The notes under the pieces are model-generated. The model saw only the letters and a program-made list of their open reading frames with translations, was not told the origin of the DNA and made no database searches. Positions 23,677-37,798 of a DNA stretch of 37,798 bases are shown here, piece by piece (the stretch's first letter is position 1; each line of letters starts with the position of its first letter). The position numbers and the translations under genes are program-made. The stretch comes from a virus, in IMG/VR virus record IMGVR_UViG_3300012931_000048, positions 1 to 37,798 of that record; one strand, given 5' to 3'.

Positions 23677-23867
23677 AAAATATTTTATTAATATTATTCA
23701 AATACTCTGCCATGTTGGCAATCAAAAAGAATAAAATGTCAGAATTAATTTATGAATTGTATTTAATTGGAGAAGGAAATGAAAGAAAAAAAATAAATCG
23801 ATATTTTCAAAATAATGACTCACAAGAGGGGCTTTATAAAAAACTCACTTGGGAAACATGGAGATGA
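23673..23867 (+). CDS. Small helical protein, unknown
   Basis: 64 aa from the ATG at 23673 (overlaps the previous TGA; GGTGG five bases upstream). The in-frame ATG at 23661 has its only GG tract immediately adjacent and is less likely. The N-terminus MKNILLILFKYSAMLAIKK is hydrophobic then basic; the rest is charged and ends LTWETWR. Its stop lies just before the RecT-like start. Too short to classify. Confidence 0.55.
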   Translation: MKNILLILFKYSAMLAIKKNKMSELIYELYLIGEGNERKKINRYFQNNDSQEGLYKKLTWETWR

Positions 23868-23869
23868 TT

Positions 23870-24964
23870 ATGGAAAATGATAATGGTAATGGTAATAATT
23901 TATATCAAGTAGCGGCCTATGATCCAACAAAGTCGTTGGCCCTGATTACGGTTGCCGAGAGTTTGCTCAAGGCCAATATGTATCCATCGCTAAAATCACC
24001 AGAGGCCGTATTTGCCGTAATACAATATGGGGCGGAACTGGGATTCGGACCAATGGCTTCATTGCAAAATATTTCGATCATTGGTGGAAAACCGGCTTGT
24101 GATGCCAAATTTTTGCTGGCATTGATGAAGAGAGCCGGATGGGCTTACCGAATTGTCGAATCATCTCCTAGCATTTGCAAAATTGAATTTATGCAAGGAG
24201 AATATAAACAATTGATAGAATATTCTATTGATGAAGCAAAAACTGCGGGACTCGCTGGAAAGGAAAATTGGAAAAAATATCCTGCAGATATGTTGTTTAA
24301 CCGTTGTATCTCCAGGGCATCACGCAGGTTGGCGGCAGATACTACACTAGGTCTATACACTGTGGAAGAGATGGAATACCCTATCGTAGGCGCAGAAAAT
24401 GCAAAAAATATTACACCTGATATTACACCTGATGAGTCAGAAAATCAAAATAAAAAACCTAATTATTTTTCCCATTTATCATCTTGGTGTAAAGAAAAAT
24501 GGGATTGGATTGAAAAGTTTATTCTCCCAAAATGTGAAGAGATTAATGAAGCATTAGGGGAATGTAAACTAGATCACCCGGCGCATCTTATTAATTCAAT
24601 TGGAGAATTTGCTCAATCTGAGAATTGCAAAAAAATGAAATCAAAAAAGATTGAAAATTTTCTAGAAGAATTTATAAAATATAGAAAGGAAAAATATAAA
24701 AAAACTGACATTCAGCCAGAGGTAATACTATCTGGGGATACCAATCCATTAATTGATGAATCACAATCAATTGTTAATGAATCAGTTCAAGTTTTTTTGT
24801 CAGCGTTTAAATCTGCCGGATTGGATTTAAGCCAAAATAAAATTTTATTTTTAACAAATGTTGCCATTGAGCAAGGGCATATTACACTAGATATGTTAAA
24901 TTCAGACATATCCGAATGTGCAAACAAAGTGGTTGCGTTTTACAAAAATAATTTTGATTTATAA
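23870..24964 (+). CDS. RecT-like single-strand annealing protein
   Basis: 364 aa from the ATG at 23870 (GGAG six bases upstream; in-frame ATGs at 23849, 23858 and 23864 are poorer). The core LLKANMYPSLKSPEAVFAVIQYGAELGFGPMASLQNISIIGGKPACDAKFLLALMKRAGW followed by KYPADMLFNRCISRASRRLAADTTLGLYTVEEM is the RecT/Rct-family pattern seen in many phages. It would anneal homologous single strands during replication and recombination. The C-terminal half (about 200-364) is a variable extension, longer than in minimal RecT. No paired exonuclease gene was seen nearby. Confidence 0.85.
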   Translation: MENDNGNGNNLYQVAAYDPTKSLALITVAESLLKANMYPSLKSPEAVFAVIQYGAELGFGPMASLQNISIIGGKPACDAKFLLALMKRAGWAYRIVESSPSICKIEFMQGEYKQLIEYSIDEAKTAGLAGKENWKKYPADMLFNRCISRASRRLAADTTLGLYTVEEMEYPIVGAENAKNITPDITPDESENQNKKPNYFSHLSSWCKEKWDWIEKFILPKCEEINEALGECKLDHPAHLINSIGEFAQSENCKKMKSKKIENFLEEFIKYRKEKYKKTDIQPEVILSGDTNPLIDESQSIVNESVQVFLSAFKSAGLDLSQNKILFLTNVAIEQGHITLDMLNSDISECANKVVAFYKNNFDL

Positions 24965-24997: not shown

Positions 24998-25432
24998 ATG
25001 ATCTATAAATTTTTTGTGACAGGATTGCCAAAACCAGGGGGATCAAAAAAAGCATTTATACATAAGCATACAGGTAAGATTATTGTTACTGATACATGTA
25101 ATAATAAAAATTGGAGAACTTTGGTAGCCACTGCGGCATTGAACGCAAAAATTCCGACATTGTTAAAACCACTATGTGTTCATTTTGTTTTTTATTTACC
25201 GCGACCAAAGAGTCATTATGGAAAAGGCAAACGAATAAGTGATGTACGTAAAAGTTCGCCTAAGTATCCGGCTGTTAAGCCAGATGCGACTAAATTAGTT
25301 AGATCGACGGAGGACGCATTGACGGGCATCATATGGAAAGATGATGCCCAGATTATAAATCAAATAGTAATTAAAAAATATGCTGATTTTGATCATCCAG
25401 GATGTGAAATCAGCATTGAAGAAATAGAATAA
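24998..25432 (+). CDS. rusA: RusA-family Holliday junction resolvase
   Basis: 144 aa, usual length. The N-terminus YKFFVTGLPKPGGSKKAF and the acidic core PAVKPDATKLVRSTEDALTGIIWKDDAQI are diagnostic: Asp96, then Asp106 and Asp115/116. In E. coli RusA the first motif is D-x-D; here the second position is Thr98 (KPDATK), a substitution that needs the other acids to supply metal binding. It resolves four-way junctions made during recombination and packaging, fitting the RecT neighbour. GCGAGAGAG precedes the start. Confidence 0.88.
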   Translation: MIYKFFVTGLPKPGGSKKAFIHKHTGKIIVTDTCNNKNWRTLVATAALNAKIPTLLKPLCVHFVFYLPRPKSHYGKGKRISDVRKSSPKYPAVKPDATKLVRSTEDALTGIIWKDDAQIINQIVIKKYADFDHPGCEISIEEIE

Positions 25433-25505: not shown

Positions 25506-26330
25506 ATGCAACAAATTTCATCTCTTATCGATCCATTGAGCAGGCTTGGACAATATATGGCATGTCCAGTAGAAAAACGTGATGAATGGTTAAAGTCGCA
25601 AGAGTGGTTTTGCGCTCTCCCAGACGATCGAGTATATCGTTGTCAACTGTGTCAAGACACTGGACATATACTGGATGGACAGGGACGTGCACGTGATTGT
25701 GGTTGCATACATGGACTTTCTCCCACTAAACAAGAAAATAATAAATATATTGCATTGCATGATTTATTATCAATCCAACATTGGGAAGGATGGCCCGTAT
25801 GGGAATTTGAGGAATTTGAAAAACAACCTAATTTTCAAACCACAAAATGTTATAATGCAGGAAAAAAATTAATATTATCGCAGGAAAAAAATTTTGCGCT
25901 AGTAATGATAGGGCAATCAGGGAGAGGAAAAACCTATACAGGATTACAGATTATATCTTGGGCAGCAAAACGAGGTTTAGATGCTATGGTGTTCCGCTGG
26001 GATGAAATGATATCATGGTATCAGCGAGGATCCCAAGATGATGGATATTATCAAAAAAAAATAGAAAGAAGGCAATCATGGATTAAAAAATTAGATGTAG
26101 TATTTATAGATGAAATAGGAAGGGGAGAAAATTCAAATCCGGATCATGCAAAAAATTTAATCAACTGGATAATTAGAGATTGTTACCGCCAACGATCATT
26201 AATCTTGGCGAGTAACATGGTACCTGATGAGTTTTATGCATATCTAGATACCTCAGTATTATCCAGGCTATCTGGATGGGCAACGATGGTATATGAAGAA
26301 ATAGGAACAAATGATTTAAGACAAAGATAA
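25506..26330 (+). CDS. DnaC-like helicase loader (AAA+ ATPase)
   Basis: 274 aa from the ATG at 25506 (GAAAGGAAAACC upstream); the ORF continues to 25434 but that part spans the stem-loop. An N-terminal Cys cluster (CQLCQDTGHIL... DCGC, 46-67) resembles zinc ribbons of phage DnaC/IstB-type loaders. Walker A is GQSGRGKT (136-143), Walker B VVFIDEIG (Asp202, Glu203), then sensor-like LILASNM. It would load the host replicative helicase at the origin together with the initiator encoded next. Confidence 0.87.
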   Translation: MQQISSLIDPLSRLGQYMACPVEKRDEWLKSQEWFCALPDDRVYRCQLCQDTGHILDGQGRARDCGCIHGLSPTKQENNKYIALHDLLSIQHWEGWPVWEFEEFEKQPNFQTTKCYNAGKKLILSQEKNFALVMIGQSGRGKTYTGLQIISWAAKRGLDAMVFRWDEMISWYQRGSQDDGYYQKKIERRQSWIKKLDVVFIDEIGRGENSNPDHAKNLINWIIRDCYRQRSLILASNMVPDEFYAYLDTSVLSRLSGWATMVYEEIGTNDLRQR

Positions 26331-26334
26331 AAAA

Positions 26335-27456
26335 ATGGTAAACGATTTTAGGATATCTACATCGTTTCGGGATAATATAAAGAGGATACGCCTACAACGC
26401 GCATTAGGGCCAGAAGGTGTACTAGCCATAATTGATCTATGGGGATATGCCGCGATGAACCGGCCGGACGGTACGCTAGATGGTATGGATGATGAAGCCA
26501 TATGCATCGCAGCTAATTGGCATGGAAAGATAGATGTTTTTATAAATGCAATTACGGATAAAAGATCTAATTTTTTAGATAAGGATGCTTCCGGAAATTA
26601 TATTTTACATGATTGGTCAACTCATAACCCATATGTTTCCGGGGCTAAAGATAGATCATCATCCGCAAGAAAAGCGGCAAAAAGTAGATGGATACAACCA
26701 TTATTAGAATCGCAATGCGGAGATGATGAAACCGCAATGCGGAATGTGCGAAACCGCAATGCGGAATGTGCGAAACCGCAATGCGGAAATGACGAAACCG
26801 CAATGCGGAATATGAAAAACCGCAATGCTCCATCTCCATCTCCATCTCCATCTCCATCTCCATCTCCATCTCCATCTCCAGAAAATATTTGCAAATCTAA
26901 AAATACGGATTTGCAATCCACACCAAAAAATATTTCAAAATCAGAGTCAGGAATGCCAGAAGAAAGGACGGAAACGGCCCAAGGTTTAAATATTATTTTA
27001 AACCCGACGCAAACCACCAATGAATTAGAAAAATCAATCCTGGGGGAAATGGGGCTGGATTCTCAAAATGATAAAAATGCAGAGTTTATTGCGATATGGA
27101 ACATCTGGCCTTCAACTCGCCGGGAAAGCAAAAAGGCAGTTTTAAAATCTTTTTCTTCCGCAATAAAACGAGAAAATTTTTCCACAATCATCCAGGGAGC
27201 TAAAAATTATTGCAATTCTCCCTACGTCACTAGCCGGATTGAGATGGGAGAATTTTCCACCATCAAAACATTACCCGCATGGCTTAATTCAGATTTATGG
27301 GAAAGGGATCCTGCCTCCTTCCAAGAACCATGTGCTTCCTGGCAAAAAAAACATTGCCAAAGGGAAAAACAAAATACCGCTTTTGGGGCAACCAATTTTG
27401 TAAGTCCCCAAAGCGGTATTAATCCAAAATCACAATATCAAAATAAATGGGAATAA
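26335..27456 (+). CDS. Replication initiator / replisome organiser containing the origin
   Basis: 373 aa. The N-terminal domain (about 1-110, RISTSFRDNIKRIRLQRALGPEGVLAIIDLWGYA) is the Lin1244/Lin1753-like winged helix of phage replication proteins. The C-terminal domain (about 243-330, FIAIWNIWPSTRRESKKAVLKSF... TIKTLPAWLNSDLWERD) matches the FWxxYP...K...TWLN..W pattern of initiators. Between them, about residues 125-165 are encoded by six 22-bp DNA iterons and 165-182 by a Ser-Pro hexamer tract. Layout parallels lambda O, where iterons lie within the gene. Last gene of the operon, before a bidirectional terminator. Confidence 0.85.
   Translation: MVNDFRISTSFRDNIKRIRLQRALGPEGVLAIIDLWGYAAMNRPDGTLDGMDDEAICIAANWHGKIDVFINAITDKRSNFLDKDASGNYILHDWSTHNPYVSGAKDRSSSARKAAKSRWIQPLLESQCGDDETAMRNVRNRNAECAKPQCGNDETAMRNMKNRNAPSPSPSPSPSPSPSPSPENICKSKNTDLQSTPKNISKSESGMPEERTETAQGLNIILNPTQTTNELEKSILGEMGLDSQNDKNAEFIAIWNIWPSTRRESKKAVLKSFSSAIKRENFSTIIQGAKNYCNSPYVTSRIEMGEFSTIKTLPAWLNSDLWERDPASFQEPCASWQKKHCQREKQNTAFGATNFVSPQSGINPKSQYQNKWE
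26711..26830 (+). repeat. Six 22-bp iterons: candidate replication origin
   Basis: CGCAATGCGG recurs at 26711, 26733, 26755, 26777 and 26799, and CGCAATGC at 26821: an exact 22-bp period. From the second copy the core is the palindrome CCGCA-A-TGCGG (the sixth is truncated). Because 22 is not a multiple of three, the repeat is read in a different frame each time, so selection must act on DNA, not on protein sequence. Two-turn spacing, position inside the initiator gene, and an AT-rich flank at 26881-26945 fit an iteron origin of the lambda-O type. Confidence 0.82.
26829..26880 (+). repeat. (TCCATC)n hexamer tract
   Basis: About eight copies of TCCATC follow the iterons and encode (Ser-Pro)n in the initiator. 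The strand asymmetry (pyrimidine on +, purine on -) and the following AT-rich 60 bp could help unwinding. On the other strand the unit is GGAGAT (Gly-Asp), the same type of hexamer that builds the Gly-X genes at 27811-30309. Confidence 0.75.
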
Positions 27457-27810: not shown

Positions 27811-28026
27811 TTATCTATCGCCCGATCCATCGCCATTGCCAGCGCCATCGCCATATCCAGCGCCATAGCCATCGCCCGATCCATTGCCATCGCCATCGCC
27901 ATATCCAGCGCCATATCCAGCGCCCGATCCAGCGCCATCGCCCTTTCCCGATCCATTGCCATAGCCAGATCCATATCCACGGCCCGATTCATTGCCAAAT
28001 CCATAGCCAAATCTATTTTCCGTCAT
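27811..28026 (-). CDS. (Gly-X)n repeat protein a
   Basis: 71 aa. MTENRFGYGFGNESGRGYGSGYG... continues as nearly perfect Gly-X dipeptides (X = Tyr, Ser, Asp, Asn, Ala) to GNGDGSGDR. GGAGAATATAA lies directly before the ATG, and the first codons match those of the genes starting at 28534 and 29580 (MT-x-NRFG). All six frames are open across this DNA because of its hexamer structure, so the frame was chosen by ribosome-binding site, shared N-terminus and stop position. No known domain; low-complexity, acidic, likely disordered or silk-like. Confidence 0.65.
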   Translation of the reverse strand: MTENRFGYGFGNESGRGYGSGYGNGSGKGDGAGSGAGYGAGYGDGDGNGSGDGYGAGYGDGAGNGDGSGDR

Positions 28027-28055
28027 TTATATTCTCCGCGAATAGAGTCCTCCAA

Positions 28056-28292
28056 TTATTTAAATCCATCGACAGTTCCATCACCATCGCCTGATCCAAA
28101 GCCCGATCCAGTTCCAAATCCATATCCTGATCCATCGCCATCGCCCGATCCATCACCAACGCTATATCCAAATCCAAAGCCCGATCCATTACCCTGGCCA
28201 GCGCCATCTCCATAGCCATGGCCATCGCCAGAGCCATTGCCAAAGCCCGAGCCCGAGCCATTGCCCGATCCAGAGTAAAATTTCTTAATCAT
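28056..28292 (-). CDS. (Gly-X)n repeat protein b
   Basis: 78 aa. MIKKFYSGSGNGSGSGFGNGSGDGHGYG..., ending GTVDGFK. GGGGAAAAAA precedes the ATG, which overlaps the stop of the next upstream gene on this strand (ATGA), implying coupled translation. X positions are Ser, Asp, Asn, Tyr, Phe, with single His and Gln. The N-terminus MIKKF is shared with the gene at 28942, while the repeat body differs, as if head and body recombine. Confidence 0.62.
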   Translation of the reverse strand: MIKKFYSGSGNGSGSGFGNGSGDGHGYGDGAGQGNGSGFGFGYSVGDGSGDGDGSGYGFGTGSGFGSGDGDGTVDGFK

Positions 28293-28534
28293 TTTTTTCC
28301 CCGTCCAGATCCATCACCAGCGCCCGATCCATTGCCATTGCCATTTCCCTCACCATATCCAGAGCCAGTTTTATTTTCAGAGCCAAAGCAAAACCCCTTG
28401 CCATTTCCCTCACCATATCCAGAGCCAAAGCTAAACACATTTCCATAATCTATTTCAATTATTTTATTTTCTCCCGTCCAGCGCCTGCGCCCGATCGATC
28501 CATTACCGAATCCAAATCTATTTTTCGTCATCAT
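28289..28534 (-). CDS. (Gly-X)n repeat protein c, apparent fusion
   Basis: 81 aa. It starts MMTKNRFGFGNGS, then has a non-repeat segment SIGRRRWTGENKIIEIDYGN (about 13-32), then resumes Gly-X with two copies of a GSGYGEGNG block. The inserted segment is the translation of an inter-gene leader: TGGACGGGAGAAAATAAA followed by ATAATTGAAATA, where related leaders read ATGATTGAAAT. So two genes appear fused by loss of a start codon (ATG to ATA). A roughly 30-bp direct repeat lies at about 28339-28369 and 28400-28430. Starts at 28534 or 28531. Confidence 0.58.
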   Translation of the reverse strand: MMTKNRFGFGNGSIGRRRWTGENKIIEIDYGNVFSFGSGYGEGNGKGFCFGSENKTGSGYGEGNGNGNGSGAGDGSGRGKK

Positions 28535-28546
28535 ATTTTTTCTCGC

Positions 28547-28942
28547 TTAAAATATATATCCAGCGCCAGCGCCCGAGCCCGATCCATTGCCCGATCCAAA
28601 GCCATATCCAGCGCCATATCCAGCGCCATCGCCATAGCCAAATCCAGATCCAGCGCCATCGCCCGAGCCCGATCCATTGCCCTTTCCATTTCCAAATCCC
28701 GATCCATCGCCATAGCCAGATCCAAAGCCATAGCCAGATCCAAAGCCATCACCATCGCCATAGCCAAATCCATTGCCATATCCATCGCCATCGCCTGAGC
28801 CATAGCCATGGCCATCACTAAAGCCAAAGCCATCGCCAAATCCAGCGCCATAGCCATAGCCCGAGCCAGATCCATTGCCAAAGCCCGAGCCCGAGCCATT
28901 GCCAGAGCCAGAGCCCAATCCCAATTCAAATTTCTTAATCAT
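28547..28942 (-). CDS. (Gly-X)n repeat protein d, long form
   Basis: 131 aa. MIKKFELGLGSGSGNGSG... then about 60 Gly-X pairs, ending GSGAGAGYIF. The leader AAGCGAGAAAAAAT before its ATG is identical to that of the gene at 28534. It shares about 60 bp of identical DNA (near 28787-28850) with the gene at 29161 (about 29045-29108, GFSDGHGYGSGDGDGYG). This indicates recent recombination within the array. Function unknown. Confidence 0.62.
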   Translation of the reverse strand: MIKKFELGLGSGSGNGSGSGFGNGSGSGYGYGAGFGDGFGFSDGHGYGSGDGDGYGNGFGYGDGDGFGSGYGFGSGYGDGSGFGNGKGNGSGSGDGAGSGFGYGDGAGYGAGYGFGSGNGSGSGAGAGYIF

Positions 28943-28954
28943 ATTTTTTCTCGC

Positions 28955-29161
28955 TTAAAATATATATCCATTGCCATAGCCATCGCCAAATCCAAAGCCC
29001 GATCCACGGCCAAATCCCGATCCATCGCCACGGCCATAGCCATCGCCATCGCCTGAGCCATAGCCATGGCCATCACTAAAGCCAAAGCCATCGCCAAATC
29101 CAGCGCCATCGCCATCGCCAAATCCATAGCCATCGCCCGATCCATCTTTTATGTCGACCAT
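28955..29161 (-). CDS. (Gly-X)n repeat protein e
   Basis: 68 aa. MVDIKDGSGDGYGFGDGDGAG..., ending GDGYGNGYIF, the same C-terminal YIF as the gene at 28942. ACAGGAGAAAATAAA precedes the ATG, one of the best ribosome-binding sites in the array. It overlaps the 3' end of the upstream gene by 13 bp. X includes Arg three times. No transmembrane segment or signal. Confidence 0.62.
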   Translation of the reverse strand: MVDIKDGSGDGYGFGDGDGAGFGDGFGFSDGHGYGSGDGDGYGRGDGSGFGRGSGFGFGDGYGNGYIF

Positions 29162-29580
29162 TTTATTTTCTCCTGTCCAGAGCCGGAGCCAGCTCCATCA
29201 CCAGCTCCATCACCAGATCCATCACCAGATCCTTCGCCCGATCCTTCGCCCGATCCTTCGCCCGATCCATATCCCTCGCCATAGCCCGATCCAAATCCAT
29301 TGCCATAGCTATAGCCATCACCCGATCCATCGCCATATCCATCGCCCTTTCCCGATCCATTACCATAGCCATAGCCATCGCCATCGCCAAATCCAAAGCC
29401 CGATCCATTACAAAAGCAATAGACATCACCAAAGCCCGATCCTTCGCCATCTCCAAATCCATCGCCATTGCCATTGCCATTGCCAGATCCAGTTCCACGG
29501 CCAGAGCCAGATCCCTTTCCAAATCCCGTTCCCGATCCATATCCAGAGCCAGCGCCATCGCCAAATCTATTTTTCGTCAT
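29149..29580 (-). CDS. (Gly-X)n repeat protein f, longest
   Basis: 143 aa. MTKNRFGDGAGSGYGSGTGFG..., with one break GFGDVYCFCNGSGFG (two Cys, about 50-64) and an acidic block of repeated GSGEGSGEGSGD near the end, finishing GQEKIKWST. The C-terminal EKIKWST is the reading of the downstream leader, so this gene runs through it. CGGGAGAATATAA precedes the ATG, which overlaps the end of the upstream gene. The two Cys are exceptional in the array. Confidence 0.62.
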   Translation of the reverse strand: MTKNRFGDGAGSGYGSGTGFGKGSGSGRGTGSGNGNGNGDGFGDGEGSGFGDVYCFCNGSGFGFGDGDGYGYGNGSGKGDGYGDGSGDGYSYGNGFGSGYGEGYGSGEGSGEGSGEGSGDGSGDGAGDGAGSGSGQEKIKWST

Positions 29581-29794
29581 TTATATTCTCCCGCGATTTT
29601 ACCTCTAATTTGTCATACATCTCTTCTGCTTTTTCATATGATTTAAAAAATTTAATCGCAATTTTTTCAGGCCTAATTTTTAAAACCCGGCCAAATTTCT
29701 TTATTTTTAAATATTGTCCCTTAGTCAAGGGTTTTCCTTCTTTCCAATTTATTTTTACTGTATCAACATGAAATCCATCCGATATTTCAATCAT
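29567..29794 (-). CDS. MIEIS-family small protein, copy 1
   Basis: 75 aa of normal complexity inserted among the Gly-X genes: MIEISDGFHVDTVKINWKEGKPLTKGQYLKIKKFGRVLKIRPEKIAIKFFKSYEKAEEMYDKLE. It is paralogous to the protein at 32266-32490 (same MIEIS-GFH start, I-x-W-x-EG-x-x-L-x-x-x-QY, LKI-x-PE). GGACGGGAAAAAAA precedes the start and ATGA coupling joins it to the upstream gene. Family unknown; a small regulator of host or phage function is plausible for early genes of this size. Confidence 0.72.
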   Translation of the reverse strand: MIEISDGFHVDTVKINWKEGKPLTKGQYLKIKKFGRVLKIRPEKIAIKFFKSYEKAEEMYDKLEVKSRENINDEK

Positions 29795-30030
29795 TTTTTT
29801 TCCCGTCCAGAGCCATCACCAGCGCCAGAGCCAGAGCCATTGCCCTTTCCATTTCCAAAGCCCGATCCATCGCCACGGCCATAGCCAGATCCAAAGCCAT
29901 CACCATCGCCAAATCCCGATCCATCGCCATAGCCAGATCCAGCGCCATCACCATCGCCAAATCCCGATCCATCGCCATCGCCATATCCAGATCCATAGCC
30001 ATCGCCCGATCCATCGCCTATTTTAATCAT
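29791..30030 (-). CDS. (Gly-X)n repeat protein h
   Basis: 79 aa. MIKIGDGSGDGYGSGYGDGDGSG..., ending GAGDGSGREKK. The full modular leader (30039-30062) ends in GCGGGAGAAAAATAA before the ATG. It shares its first 16 codons almost exactly with the next gene (30309). Contains internally repeated GSGFGDGDG blocks. Acidic, with aromatic Tyr/Phe at regular intervals. Confidence 0.65.
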   Translation of the reverse strand: MIKIGDGSGDGYGSGYGDGDGSGFGDGDGAGSGYGDGSGFGDGDGFGSGYGRGDGSGFGNGKGNGSGSGAGDGSGREKK

Positions 30031-30038
30031 TTATTTTT

Positions 30039-30062
30039 CTCCCGCGATTAGAGTCCGCCGAC
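30039..30062 (-). promoter_or_regulatory. Modular leader L1
   Basis: On the minus strand it reads GTCGGCGGACTCTAATCGC then GGGAG, placing the ribosome-binding site before the ATG at 30030. Same element as at 30318, 30693, 31867, 32213 and 32600. Confidence 0.75.
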
Positions 30063-30066
30063 TATA

Positions 30067-30309
30067 TTAATCGCCATATCCATAGCCATCGCCAAATCCA
30101 GCGCCATAGCCCGAGCCAGAGCCATCGCCATCGCCACGGCCACGGCCCGAGCCATATCCATTGCCATCGCCACGGCCATCGCCATCGCCATAGCCATCGC
30201 CATCGCCCCGGCCAAATCCATTGCCAGATCCATAGCCCGATCCAGAGCCACATCCACGGCCATAGCCAGATCCATAGCCATCGCCCGATCCATCGCCTAT
30301 TTTAATCAT
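30067..30309 (-). CDS. (Gly-X)n repeat protein i
   Basis: 80 aa, first of the Gly-X genes in transcription order. MIKIGDGSGDGYGSGYGRGCG..., ending GAGFGDGYGYGD. X includes Arg at several positions and one Cys. The modular leader (30318-30341) with GCGGGAGAAAAATAA precedes the ATG. Its TAA stop is immediately followed by the leader of the next gene. Confidence 0.65.
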   Translation of the reverse strand: MIKIGDGSGDGYGSGYGRGCGSGSGYGSGNGFGRGDGDGYGDGDGRGDGNGYGSGRGRGDGDGSGSGYGAGFGDGYGYGD

Positions 30310-30343: not shown

Positions 30344-30374
30344 TGATGAGTGGCCGCAACGCGGCCACTCATCA
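30344..30374. terminator. Perfect 14-bp hairpin, GC-rich (copy 1)
   Basis: TGATGAGTGGCCGC pairs perfectly with its complement across a 3-nt loop (AAC). It follows the DUF6948-like gene and precedes leader L2. There is no T run, so it is more likely an mRNA 3'-end stabiliser or processing signal than a strong intrinsic terminator. Confidence 0.65.
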
Positions 30375-34732: not shown

Positions 34733-37700
34733 AAACGATACAATTTGTGGTATTTTTTGTATTATTTTCTATTAGATCATATGCGGGTGCATATTGGACG
34801 CAATGTAATCCTGATGGAATGGGATTAGTTTCTTTATTTTCAGAGGATGGGGAGATTTTATTTTGGGATTGGAGTGATGCCCCGGTGTATGAATATGGGG
34901 GATCGGTGATAGAAGCAGAAGTGGGATCAGTAGTAGGGGATGAAATTTTTTCTGGGGATACGGTGAGTCATTATGGGGGATATTACACGATAACGGCAGG
35001 GATACCTATACCAGCGTCATTTGCGGTAGGTCAGGCGACGGATGATTTTTCAATAATTCAGTTTTCTGTAGCGAGTTCACATGTTGATATAGAGGAAGCG
35101 AATGGTATAAATTCAGAATTTATGCAGACGTTTGGGTATGATTTAATTGTATGTAATATAATACCAAACGCTACTGATGAAATTAACCGGATTGAGTATA
35201 ATGAATATGAAAATTTAGTTGGAAATGTTTTATGTGTTCAAATTAAGATACCTGATAGTTACCAGGGAAGTACATTTTGGTTTTATTTAGATGCGCAAAC
35301 GTATAGGTCAGATGGATATCTATTACAGCATGGATTTACGGAAGATGCGTATTTAGTATTAGGGGAGAATGAGGCGACAGCAACACCTACAGTAACACCG
35401 ACAGCAACTCAGACACCTACTAATACAGAGACATCTACGCCAACGCCGACGCCGACGAGTACTGCAACTTTCACATTTACGCCGACGAAAACTCCTACGG
35501 TTCCTCCTACGCCTACTGGTACATTTACTAGTACATTCACGCCTACAGCAACCTGGACGCCGACGAAAACAAAGACGCCGACGCCGACGAGTACTGCAAC
35601 TTTCACATTTACGCCGACGAAAACAAAGACGCCTACTGCTACGGCTACATCAACATTTACGTTAACTCCGACATCGACATCAACGCCTACGCCAATACCG
35701 GGTATTTTAGATATAGCGGTAGTTGATATTGAATCTGCTACATCGGTGCAGATTCCTGGATGGACAAATTTATCTGTTGTAATCCGGAATATAGGAACTA
35801 TATCTTGTGCGACATCAACGATTTTATCCGTTTCAAATACATCGGATGAGGTTGTTTATGGGACGTGGACAATTTTACCGGGTATTCCGGCTCCTGGGGA
35901 TGAGACGACATATCAGTGTTACATCACAACGATGGGATTATCAGATGGAACTAAATCATTGAGGGCTTATTTTGATCTTGATGACAATGATATTTCAAAT
36001 AACGAATTAATAAGTACAATAGAATTTTTACCAGAATTTACGCCGACGCCAACGGTTATACCGACTTATACGTTTACGAGTACGCCGACAGCCACAGATA
36101 CGCCGACAGTAACGCCGACGCCGACATTTACTCCGACGGTTACAAATACTCAGACATTTACGTCTACGCCTACGTTTACGATGACGCCGACAGTTACGCC
36201 GACAATTATTCCAACAATAATAACCGAGGTAGATGCAGATGATGAATTGAATTTATGGCCGGGTGGGGCGAGGGCTGGAGCGATTCATGGTGGTATTATT
36301 GGAGCAACGCATGTTTTTGATTTATTACCGTCGGTTGGAGGTTTTACGTTAGATGATATTGCATATCAATTTCGTAGGGGGGATATAATCACAGTTAATG
36401 ATGCTACAGAGGCCTATCGATTATCCCTTGTTGGAACGAAGCATTGGGAGCCGATTGGTGCATCTGCAGCGCTTGTAGGGATAATGGAGGCAAGTGTAGA
36501 AAATCATGAGAATCGGATAAATTTATTGGAAATAACTGAAACGCCAGTTCCCACAGTAGTTATTACGGGATCGGGTAATGCAGGAATAACTACGGTAGTT
36601 GGTGGGTATAATATTGATGTACCAACAAATGTTCCGACATCAACATCAACGCCTACGCCTACATTAACCACCACATTTACCCCAACAAACACATTTACGA
36701 TGGTACCCACAGTAGTACTTACGGGAGGAGGGATAGCCGGGATCACTCCGGTGTCTGGAGGATATCAGGTGAATGTGCCTAATCCGACTGCCATCCCGAC
36801 CTACGCCTACACGCCACCCACGGCGCAGCCGACATATGCTTATACTCCACCGACGGCGATTCCAACGCTGGTGATAACGGGTGGAGGGATAGCAGGGATT
36901 ACGCCGGTAACTGGTGGATACAATGTGCAAGTGACAAATCCGACTGCCGCGAGTACGCCTACACCCCAACCAACTTATGCTTATACGGCTCCGACTGCTG
37001 CGAATACACCTACTCCTCAACCTACTACAGTACTTACGGGAGGAGGGATAGCCGGGATCACTCCGGTGTCTGGAGGGTATAATATACAAGTTCAAAATCC
37101 TACGGCAGCGAGCACGCCTACACCTCAGCCAACTTATGTGTATACAGCGCCGACCGCCGTCCCCACGGTAGTTATTACGGGTGGAGGGAGTATTACGGTA
37201 ACGCCAGTCAGCGGTGGGTATAATTTAAATTCACCGGTTTTTTCCTCGACATTATTGGACAATGTATTTAGTACAACTGGGTTACTAAAGCGGACTGGAA
37301 CTGCTACTTATACTACGATAACAGATAACTCATCCACTTGGGATAAGGCTTTGCAATGGGATGGGGGATCAACCTCCTTGGTATCAGCAACGGGTAGGAC
37401 TTCGCTTGGTTTGGGGTCAGCGGCTGTATTGGCTTCTGAAAACCCCGTGGCTAATGATGGAAATCTTCCCACAGGTGCGGCGGTAATAGCATATGCTACA
37501 AATATTATTTCTTCTCTTGTTGGTAATTATTTAAAATTAAACACGTCAAATAATAATGAATTGACGGGAACAATCGGAAATAAACTAACAAATAGTTCAT
37601 TTGACCAATCGACATCACGTATAGCTAATGCACAGACATCCTATGCCACTGGCGCGGCTAACGCGTTGTTGCTCAATGCGTCGACATCTTTTATCGGTGG

Positions 37701-37798
37701 AGGGAGCGGGAGTGGATATGAATTAACGGTAAATGGAGATACGTATATCGGTGGAGGGAGCGGGAGTGGATATGAATTAACGGTAAATGGAGATACGT
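34729..37798 (+). CDS. Giant tail fibre/adhesin with signal peptide, cut by window end
   Basis: Open for 1023 codons from the ATG at 34729 (ATGA overlap) with no stop before the edge. A signal-like N-terminus (MKTIQFVVFFVLFSIRSYAGA), a globular domain (about 20-215), TPT linker (about 216-324), a CARDB-like domain (about 325-440, GILDIAVVDIESATSV... LRAYFDLDDNDISNNE), second TPT linker (about 442-500), a short globular part, then five GGGIAGITPVSGGYN modules separated by Pro/Thr/Tyr linkers (about 610-835), then a fibre-like region (RTGTATYTTITDNSSTWDKALQWDGGS) and GGGSGSGYELTVNGDT repeats. Likely the receptor-binding fibre; secretion signals on phage fibres are unusual. Confidence 0.85.
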   Translation, partial: MKTIQFVVFFVLFSIRSYAGAYWTQCNPDGMGLVSLFSEDGEILFWDWSDAPVYEYGGSVIEAEVGSVVGDEIFSGDTVSHYGGYYTITAGIPIPASFAVGQATDDFSIIQFSVASSHVDIEEANGINSEFMQTFGYDLIVCNIIPNATDEINRIEYNEYENLVGNVLCVQIKIPDSYQGSTFWFYLDAQTYRSDGYLLQHGFTEDAYLVLGENEATATPTVTPTATQTPTNTETSTPTPTPTSTATFTFTPTKTPTVPPTPTGTFTSTFTPTATWTPTKTKTPTPTSTATFTFTPTKTKTPTATATSTFTLTPTSTSTPTPIPGILDIAVVDIESATSVQIPGWTNLSVVIRNIGTISCATSTILSVSNTSDEVVYGTWTILPGIPAPGDETTYQCYITTMGLSDGTKSLRAYFDLDDNDISNNELISTIEFLPEFTPTPTVIPTYTFTSTPTATDTPTVTPTPTFTPTVTNTQTFTSTPTFTMTPTVTPTIIPTIITEVDADDELNLWPGGARAGAIHGGIIGATHVFDLLPSVGGFTLDDIAYQFRRGDIITVNDATEAYRLSLVGTKHWEPIGASAALVGIMEASVENHENRINLLEITETPVPTVVITGSGNAGITTVVGGYNIDVPTNVPTSTSTPTPTLTTTFTPTNTFTMVPTVVLTGGGIAGITPVSGGYQVNVPNPTAIPTYAYTPPTAQPTYAYTPPTAIPTLVITGGGIAGITPVTGGYNVQVTNPTAASTPTPQPTYAYTAPTAANTPTPQPTTVLTGGGIAGITPVSGGYNIQVQNPTAASTPTPQPTYVYTAPTAVPTVVITGGGSITVTPVSGGYNLNSPVFSSTLLDNVFSTTGLLKRTGTATYTTITDNSSTWDKALQWDGGSTSLVSATGRTSLGLGSAAVLASENPVANDGNLPTGAAVIAYATNIISSLVGNYLKLNTSNNNELTGTIGNKLTNSSFDQSTSRIANAQTSYATGAANALLLNASTSFIGGGSGSGYELTVNGDTYIGGGSGSGYELTVNGDT
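36557..37215 (+). repeat. Five-fold module repeat in the fibre
   Basis: A unit reading V-(V/L)-(L/I)-T-GGG-IAGITPVSGGY recurs near 36559, 36712, 36869, 37025 and 37161, joined by PTA-x-(S/N)TPTPQPTYAYT linkers. The second and fourth units share about 47 identical bases (36714-36760 and 37028-37074), so the array was made by recent duplication. Confidence 0.8.
37692..37798 (+). repeat. 54-bp tandem repeat at the window edge
   Basis: 37692-37745 is repeated from 37746 to the end (53 bases present). It encodes IGGGSGSGYELTVNGDTY, 18 residues, in frame, so it is consistent with a real fibre repeat. A repeat at this point would also stop a short-read assembly, explaining the window end. Confidence 0.85.

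Follow-up and report, generated by a model that had tools for sequence, protein, structure and literature searches.

A candidate replication origin of phased iterons and a short-period tract inside a phage initiator gene

Where does replication of this phage begin, and do the repeats in the middle of its putative initiator gene mark the place? We analyzed a virus record of 37,798 bp (the window), a fragment lacking terminal repeats, so that a second origin could lie elsewhere. We consider it likely, with a probability of about 85%, that positions 26710-26945 are the phage's origin and are bound by P0001, the initiator encoded by the same gene. An earlier note on this DNA had proposed such an origin within the initiator gene. 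This reading is supported by the match of P0001 to the phrog_9474 replication initiation family, by 11-bp-phased sites conserved at the same place in relatives, by a fold resembling an iteron-binding domain, and by the precedents of lambda O and pSK41 rep. The features that it involves are as follows.

23849-24964, plus strand: RecT-like annealing protein, in a replication/recombination block with the initiator gene
24998-25432, plus strand: RusA-like resolvase, in the same block
25506-26330, plus strand: DnaC/IstB-like AAA+ helicase loader, 274 aa, 4 bp upstream of the initiator gene
26335-27456, plus strand: initiator gene, 373 aa, phrog_9474 replication initiation protein (E 1.3e-14)
26335-26640, plus strand: winged-helix-like N-terminal DNA-binding domain, codons 1-102 (AlphaFold2 pLDDT 85-98)
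26644-26718, plus strand: long helix after the wing, codons 104-128 (AlphaFold2), carrying the motif A-x-x-R/K-W/Y
26674-26691, plus strand: AAKSRW within this helix, codons 114-119, the instance of that motif
26710-26720, plus strand: iteron 1, TCGCAATGCGG (motif match)
26732-26742, plus strand: iteron 2, CCGCAATGCGG (motif match)
26754-26764, plus strand: iteron 3, CCGCAATGCGG (motif match)
26776-26786, plus strand: iteron 4, CCGCAATGCGG (motif match)
26798-26808, plus strand: iteron 5, CCGCAATGCGG (motif match)
26820-26828, plus strand: iteron 6, CCGCAATGC, its right arm lost to the tract (motif match)
26828-26880, plus strand: period-6 tract, CTCCAT x 8.8, 100% identical, encoding SPSPSP
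26881-26945, plus strand: AT-rich segment after the tract (low GC), proposed melting site
27016-27354, plus strand: helical C-terminal domain, codons 228-340 (AlphaFold2), proposed helicase or loader contact

Six copies of the core GCAATGC start at 26712, 26734, 26756, 26778, 26800 and 26822, with a spacing of exactly 22 bp. The earlier note had described six exact 22-bp iterons, which holds for these cores, but the longer CGCAATGCGG is complete in only five copies, the sixth being CGCAATGCTC, shortened at its junction with the CTCCAT tract. The full near-palindrome CCGCAATGCGG is present in four copies, and copy 1 starts with T. The note had also argued from rotating reading frames that the DNA is selected. 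Indeed, the codon phases of the six cores are 2, 0, 1, 2, 0, 1, with all three frames used. As a synonymous null, the protein was held constant and codons were resampled from the window's own usage in 20,000 sequences. None of these contained a six-copy 22-bp chain (the longest had 4 copies) and none contained four full motifs. Since no synonymous recoding matched the array, the iteron array is selected as DNA. Over the whole window, the 11-mer near-palindrome had 19 matches at up to two mismatches versus 6.8 expected, and 0 of 100 shuffles had as many. We considered CCGCAACGCGG at 30354 and 30729 as extra sites and rejected them as parts of repeated intergenic hairpins. These hairpins, GAGTGGCCGC(AAC/TTT)GCGGCCACTC, are found in three near-identical copies (30354, 30729 and 32251), one of them with an AGTGGCC variant; they adjoin AGTCGGCGGACTCTAAGCGC-like sequence and are apparently minus-strand gene leaders.

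The strand-asymmetric hexamer tract and the AT-rich segment that the earlier note placed after the array were both confirmed. The 8.8 CTCCAT units contain no G on the plus strand, and the following 60 bp have 23% and 27% GC in their two 30-bp halves, versus 40% in the part of the gene that codes for the N-terminus. Slightly lower GC is found elsewhere in the gene, in 60-bp stretches starting at 26521-26527. We propose that the CTCCAT tract is an unwinding or single-strand element.

The profile match of P0001 to phrog_9474 extends over residues 9-340, and this family was matched by all 39 members of a full-length alignment (P0001 and 38 relatives). AlphaFold2 predicts the N-terminal domain confidently (pLDDT mostly >95 at residues 10-100) and the middle part, encoded by the iterons and the tract, with low confidence. 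Further along, residues 203-327 match phrog_9327, a "primosomal protein" profile. In a structure search with the N-terminal domain, the best VIA matches were 5kbj, 4pql and 4pt7, with modest Z-scores of 6.2-6.4 and rmsd values of 3.7-3.8 over 84-85 superposed residues. We take these to be entries of the pSK41 Rep N-terminal domain, a Rep-DNA complex included. The predicted structure thus points, with modest strength, to the iteron-binding domain of pSK41 Rep as the nearest solved fold. A Foldseek search of the same domain against the PDB gave no significant match (E above 0.5), P0001 had no Pfam match to RepA_N and did not match the chains of pSK41 Rep in sequence, and searching the PDB sequences with profiles of the families returned noise only.

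Intragenic iteron origins are already known, in lambda and pSK41. In lambda, the initiator O cooperates with a partner that brings the helicase. The origins of lambda and Stx phages, which comprise iterons and an AT-rich tract, are placed centrally in gene O, as the earlier note had stated of the lambda iterons, and extra iterons in O genes of this type add residues to the O protein (PMC7466680). The window resembles the lambda origin and the six-iteron Stx origins in having iterons and an AT-rich part inside the initiator gene. It differs from lambda, whose iteron is a longer, 19-bp sequence (PMC5043065), in its 11-bp near-palindromes two turns apart and in the period-6 tract that precedes the AT-rich part. 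Phased iterons themselves are the rule among iteron plasmids (PMC5043065). No O-like match was found for P0001 in the profile search; among the aligned members, 6/39 and 3/39 matched the "replication initiation O-like" families phrog_678 and phrog_345, respectively. In pSK41, the origin is central in rep, and its Rep boxes are bound by the winged-helix N-terminal domain of Rep. The middle of the protein, encoded by the origin, acts as a linker and tolerates in-frame deletion, and DnaG is contacted by the C-terminal domain (PMC5703833). Origins of this pSK41 (RepA_N) type share with the window the central position of the sites in the initiator gene and, if the modest fold match holds, a winged-helix N-terminal domain. 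The description of pSK41 consulted here mentions no tract of 5-, 6- or 7-bp period (PMC5703833). What looks new in the window is the layout of sites and tract.

We compared about 100 non-redundant phage relatives overall. Direct searches with P0001 and P0002 against viral contigs, and with P0001 against named phages, yielded at most two weak matches, and phrog_9474 relatives were reached only by way of aligned N-terminal domains. Two peptide patterns from this alignment, neither including the iterons, fetched 52 loci, of which 40 were non-redundant; selection was by protein sequence alone, with repeats disregarded. In the region from the helix to the tract of these 40 relatives, base identity at lags of 11, 22, 33 and 44 bp was 0.33, 0.37, 0.32 and 0.32, versus about 0.25-0.28, with no lag peaks, in flanking parts of the same genes. 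Because 11 bp is not a multiple of a codon, this phasing belongs to the DNA. A single constant spacing separates the last core from the tract in 18/25 loci. Over the 30 bp that follow the tract, GC content is 0.40 versus 0.52 in the N-terminal coding part, with the lower value after the tract in 28/35 relatives. The 11-bp phasing is retained in 11 relatives that carry the tract without GCAWTGC (codon-shuffle z of 12); in one example, AACGNNCGTT palindromes adjoin the same SP tract.

The arrangement extends to other initiator families. Scanning viral contigs for three close GCAATGC copies gave at least 120 loci. Repeat spacing was out of frame in 80 of the 120 loci listed, and the other 40 were set aside as in-frame protein repeats of 15, 18 or 21 bp (VYGNA, LSNADL). 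Among 120 ORFs taken from both strands of 68 listed loci, 34 matched DUF1376 (PF07120) and 21 matched Lin1244_N (PF14297), and many matched "primosomal" or "replication initiation" families. Like the window, DUF1376 and Lin1244_N genes combine an SA..RW helix with GCAWTGC downstream of it in 11- or 22-bp phase and then a tract of short period; they differ in their N-terminal domains and in their tract periods of 7 and 5 rather than 6. P0001 had no Pfam match to either family, and Lin1244_N was matched by 2/39 aligned phrog_9474 members (best E 3.8e-4). Many Lin1244_N-type genes (at L022, L037, L056, L093, L134 and similar loci) contain two more GCAWTGC copies with 11-bp spacing, located some 180 bp upstream of the main array and within the part coding for the winged helix. 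Of 8 named phages inspected, 2 had two or three GCAWTGC copies at 22-bp spacing downstream of an RW helix; of the remainder, some had different repeats and some no obvious ones. Acinetobacter phage phiAC-1 and Vibrio phage 1.052.A show the layout of helix, iterons and tract, and in the latter an IstB-like gene adjoins the candidate origin gene. In Moraxella phage Mcat8 (L358), the gene matched by tblastn holds another kind of candidate intragenic array, made of long GGGGGTACAATTTTGCA-type repeats in its central part.

The period of the tract follows the initiator family. Scored per locus as the best period over the 60 bp that follow the last core, it was 6 bp in 23/24 phrog_9474 loci, 7 bp in 36/39 DUF1376 loci and 5 bp in 14/14 Lin1244_N loci. 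When all members were included, irrespective of iteron type, these periods were found in 35/41, 45/49 and 13/13 loci, respectively, and codon-shuffled controls gave scattered periods. The units vary (CTCCAT, CTCCTT, CAATAC, CACCAGA, CCCAATA, AAAGG), yet the period is constant per family, even after the iteron has changed. Periods of 5 and 7 are not codon multiples, which excludes a purely protein-level cause in DUF1376 and Lin1244_N. Judged from these comparisons, the tract is selected as DNA. It is also strand-asymmetric in all three families, with a mean absolute GC skew of 0.74 for phrog_9474, 0.53 for DUF1376 and 0.82 for Lin1244_N (n=4 loci), versus 0.15, 0.13 and 0.30 in control stretches.

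What might such a tract do? One comparison, on the level of function only, is with the DnaA-trio of bacterial oriC, which likewise is a short tandem repeat beside double-strand initiator sites. The repeated DnaA-trio is described as stabilizing DnaA filaments on single strands (PMC4980987). The trio has a period of 3 and is read by DnaA, whereas here the period is 5, 6 or 7, the initiator is unrelated and the tract is known from sequence alone. We put the idea that the tract serves as a register on single-stranded DNA at only slightly short of an even chance. Alternatively, the array may belong to an origin in which the tract is a soft, structure-free spacer of low duplex stability that no protein reads by its period. 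The strand asymmetry of all three tract types, their low tendency to form hairpins and the AT-rich step that comes after the tract would suit such a spacer. Against it, units vary while the period stays constant per family, even with a changed iteron, and CTCCAT has 50% GC, which argues that the tract is not merely a low-melting spacer. We regard the spacer as a possible but somewhat doubtful explanation.

Presence of the A-x-x-R/K-W/Y motif after the winged helix goes together with the iteron sequence. In phrog_9474, GCAWTGC was found in 29/29 genes with the motif (window included) versus 0/12 without it, such that helix motif and iteron core were concordant in 41/41 relatives; a narrower definition of the motif gave 27/27 versus 2/14. 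For DUF1376 initiators the numbers were 29/34 with the motif and 0/15 without. When proteins with an RW helix were selected by their N-terminus, at least two GCAWTGC copies were nearby in 24/32 DUF1376 and 9/13 Lin1244_N cases. The alignment in a profile comparison of DUF1376 and phrog_9474 covers the RW helix only. On a phrog_9474 tree built from the N-terminal domain, with the helix left out, helix state changes about 9 times, close to the mean of 10.7 in random shuffles; thus, winged-helix phylogeny is no predictor of helix state. Restricting the analysis to well-supported branches left five independent helix changes, with the iteron co-changing in 5/5; these branches are few, and a sign test on the five changes alone gives p 0.06. 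In DUF1376, four supported independent changes, again on few branches, included about 3.6 concordant and 0 opposed. Since the codons for helix and iterons are adjacent, joint exchange as a cassette accounts for this coupling at least as well as contact between them. This joint change of helix and iteron, which the winged helix does not follow, provides a natural experiment on the site-reading part of the initiator.

We infer that the initiator binds the iterons, that the DNA opens and that the loader is recruited, the first step by comparison and precedent and the later steps by inference. The origin would be of the theta type and would occupy the linker-coding stretch of the initiator gene, between the codons of the N-terminal DNA-binding domain and those of the C-terminal domain. 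Initiator molecules would bind the near-palindromes, which recur every two turns on the same side of the DNA, by means of the winged helix and the A-x-x-R-W helix that follows it. The loaded array would then bend and strain the DNA, leading to opening of the adjoining tract and AT segment. Once open, the short-period, strand-asymmetric tract could act as a single-strand register for the initiator or for loading of the helicase, and the C-terminal domain may recruit the helicase together with the DnaC-like loader.

The array might instead be an operator, through which the initiator autoregulates its own gene or organizes DNA, with no replication start at this place. Arrays of binding sites may indeed serve as operators, and binding for regulation and for initiation look alike in sequence data. 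However, this array is about 375 bp into the coding sequence, has an asymmetric tract after it at fixed spacing and then an AT-rich step, and is located in initiator families that adjoin helicase genes, all of which make an operator improbable. Least credible is selection on the protein, for repeated peptides or a rigid (XP)n linker with the DNA repeats as a by-product of slippage: phrog_9474 tracts do keep alternating proline and slippage does expand simple repeats, but the 22- and 11-bp units run through successive frames and code for differing peptides, the 5- and 7-bp tracts of the other families are not codon multiples, and in phrog_9474 tracts, whose period does fit the codon, serine (one vote per locus) is TCT in 28/29 versus 0.15 expected and proline CCA or CCT in 36/36 versus 0.45 expected.

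Returning to the origin reading, we tentatively suggest, at odds somewhat below even, that several phage initiator families share a two-part intragenic origin code. In its first part, the A-x-x-R/K-W/Y helix would be inherited with, and would probably read, the 11-bp-phased GCAWTGC; in its second, the adjoining strand-asymmetric tract of 5, 6 or 7 nt would set the register on single-stranded DNA for initiator or helicase loader, as a phage counterpart of the DnaA-trio. The helix-plus-iteron cassette would be exchangeable, whereas the tract period would stay with the initiator family. The layout, with sites 11 or 22 bases apart and then a tract of family-specific period, looks undescribed so far. 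We found no earlier report of this iteron, of these tract periods, of the helix-iteron pairing or of a family-bound tract period in the open-access literature, subscription papers being outside the search. To our knowledge, phage origins are seldom annotated, and the combination of RW helix, 11-bp-phased GCAWTGC and 5/6/7-bp tract would allow origins to be called in many uncultured phages. It also raises the question of how initiators other than DnaA arrange single-stranded DNA for helicase loading, and why by 5, 6 or 7 nt.

The surroundings of the initiator gene bear on two further points of the earlier note. The DnaC-like loader that it placed just upstream is there in the window, but such a loader is uncommon beside relatives: only 1/49 of their neighbor ORFs matches one, besides the window's own, and we therefore rejected it as a generally conserved neighbor. 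Matches to DnaB-like or primase/helicase families were found for 9/49 neighbor ORFs. The GC-skew check proposed in the note did not bear out the origin, as cumulative skew has a maximum near 26.7 kb, whereas a bidirectional origin would call for the opposite sign. This maximum coincides with the switch in gene strand, and GC skew was rejected as origin support. Beyond the initiator gene, on the minus strand at 27811-30309, lies a series of small ORFs that overlap in part and consist of XG dipeptides (GYGSGDGFG...); several of these ORFs begin with MTENRFG or MTKNRFG. They are built of 6-bp GCCATA/GCCATC-like repeats and have a GC skew near -0.45. Near the record ends, positions 132-1331 and 35375-36858 hold a Thr-Pro-rich secreted-looking protein and ACGCCGACG-type repeats, and the record closes with a perfect 54-bp x 2 tandem repeat (37692-37798), possibly an assembly edge or a longer array.
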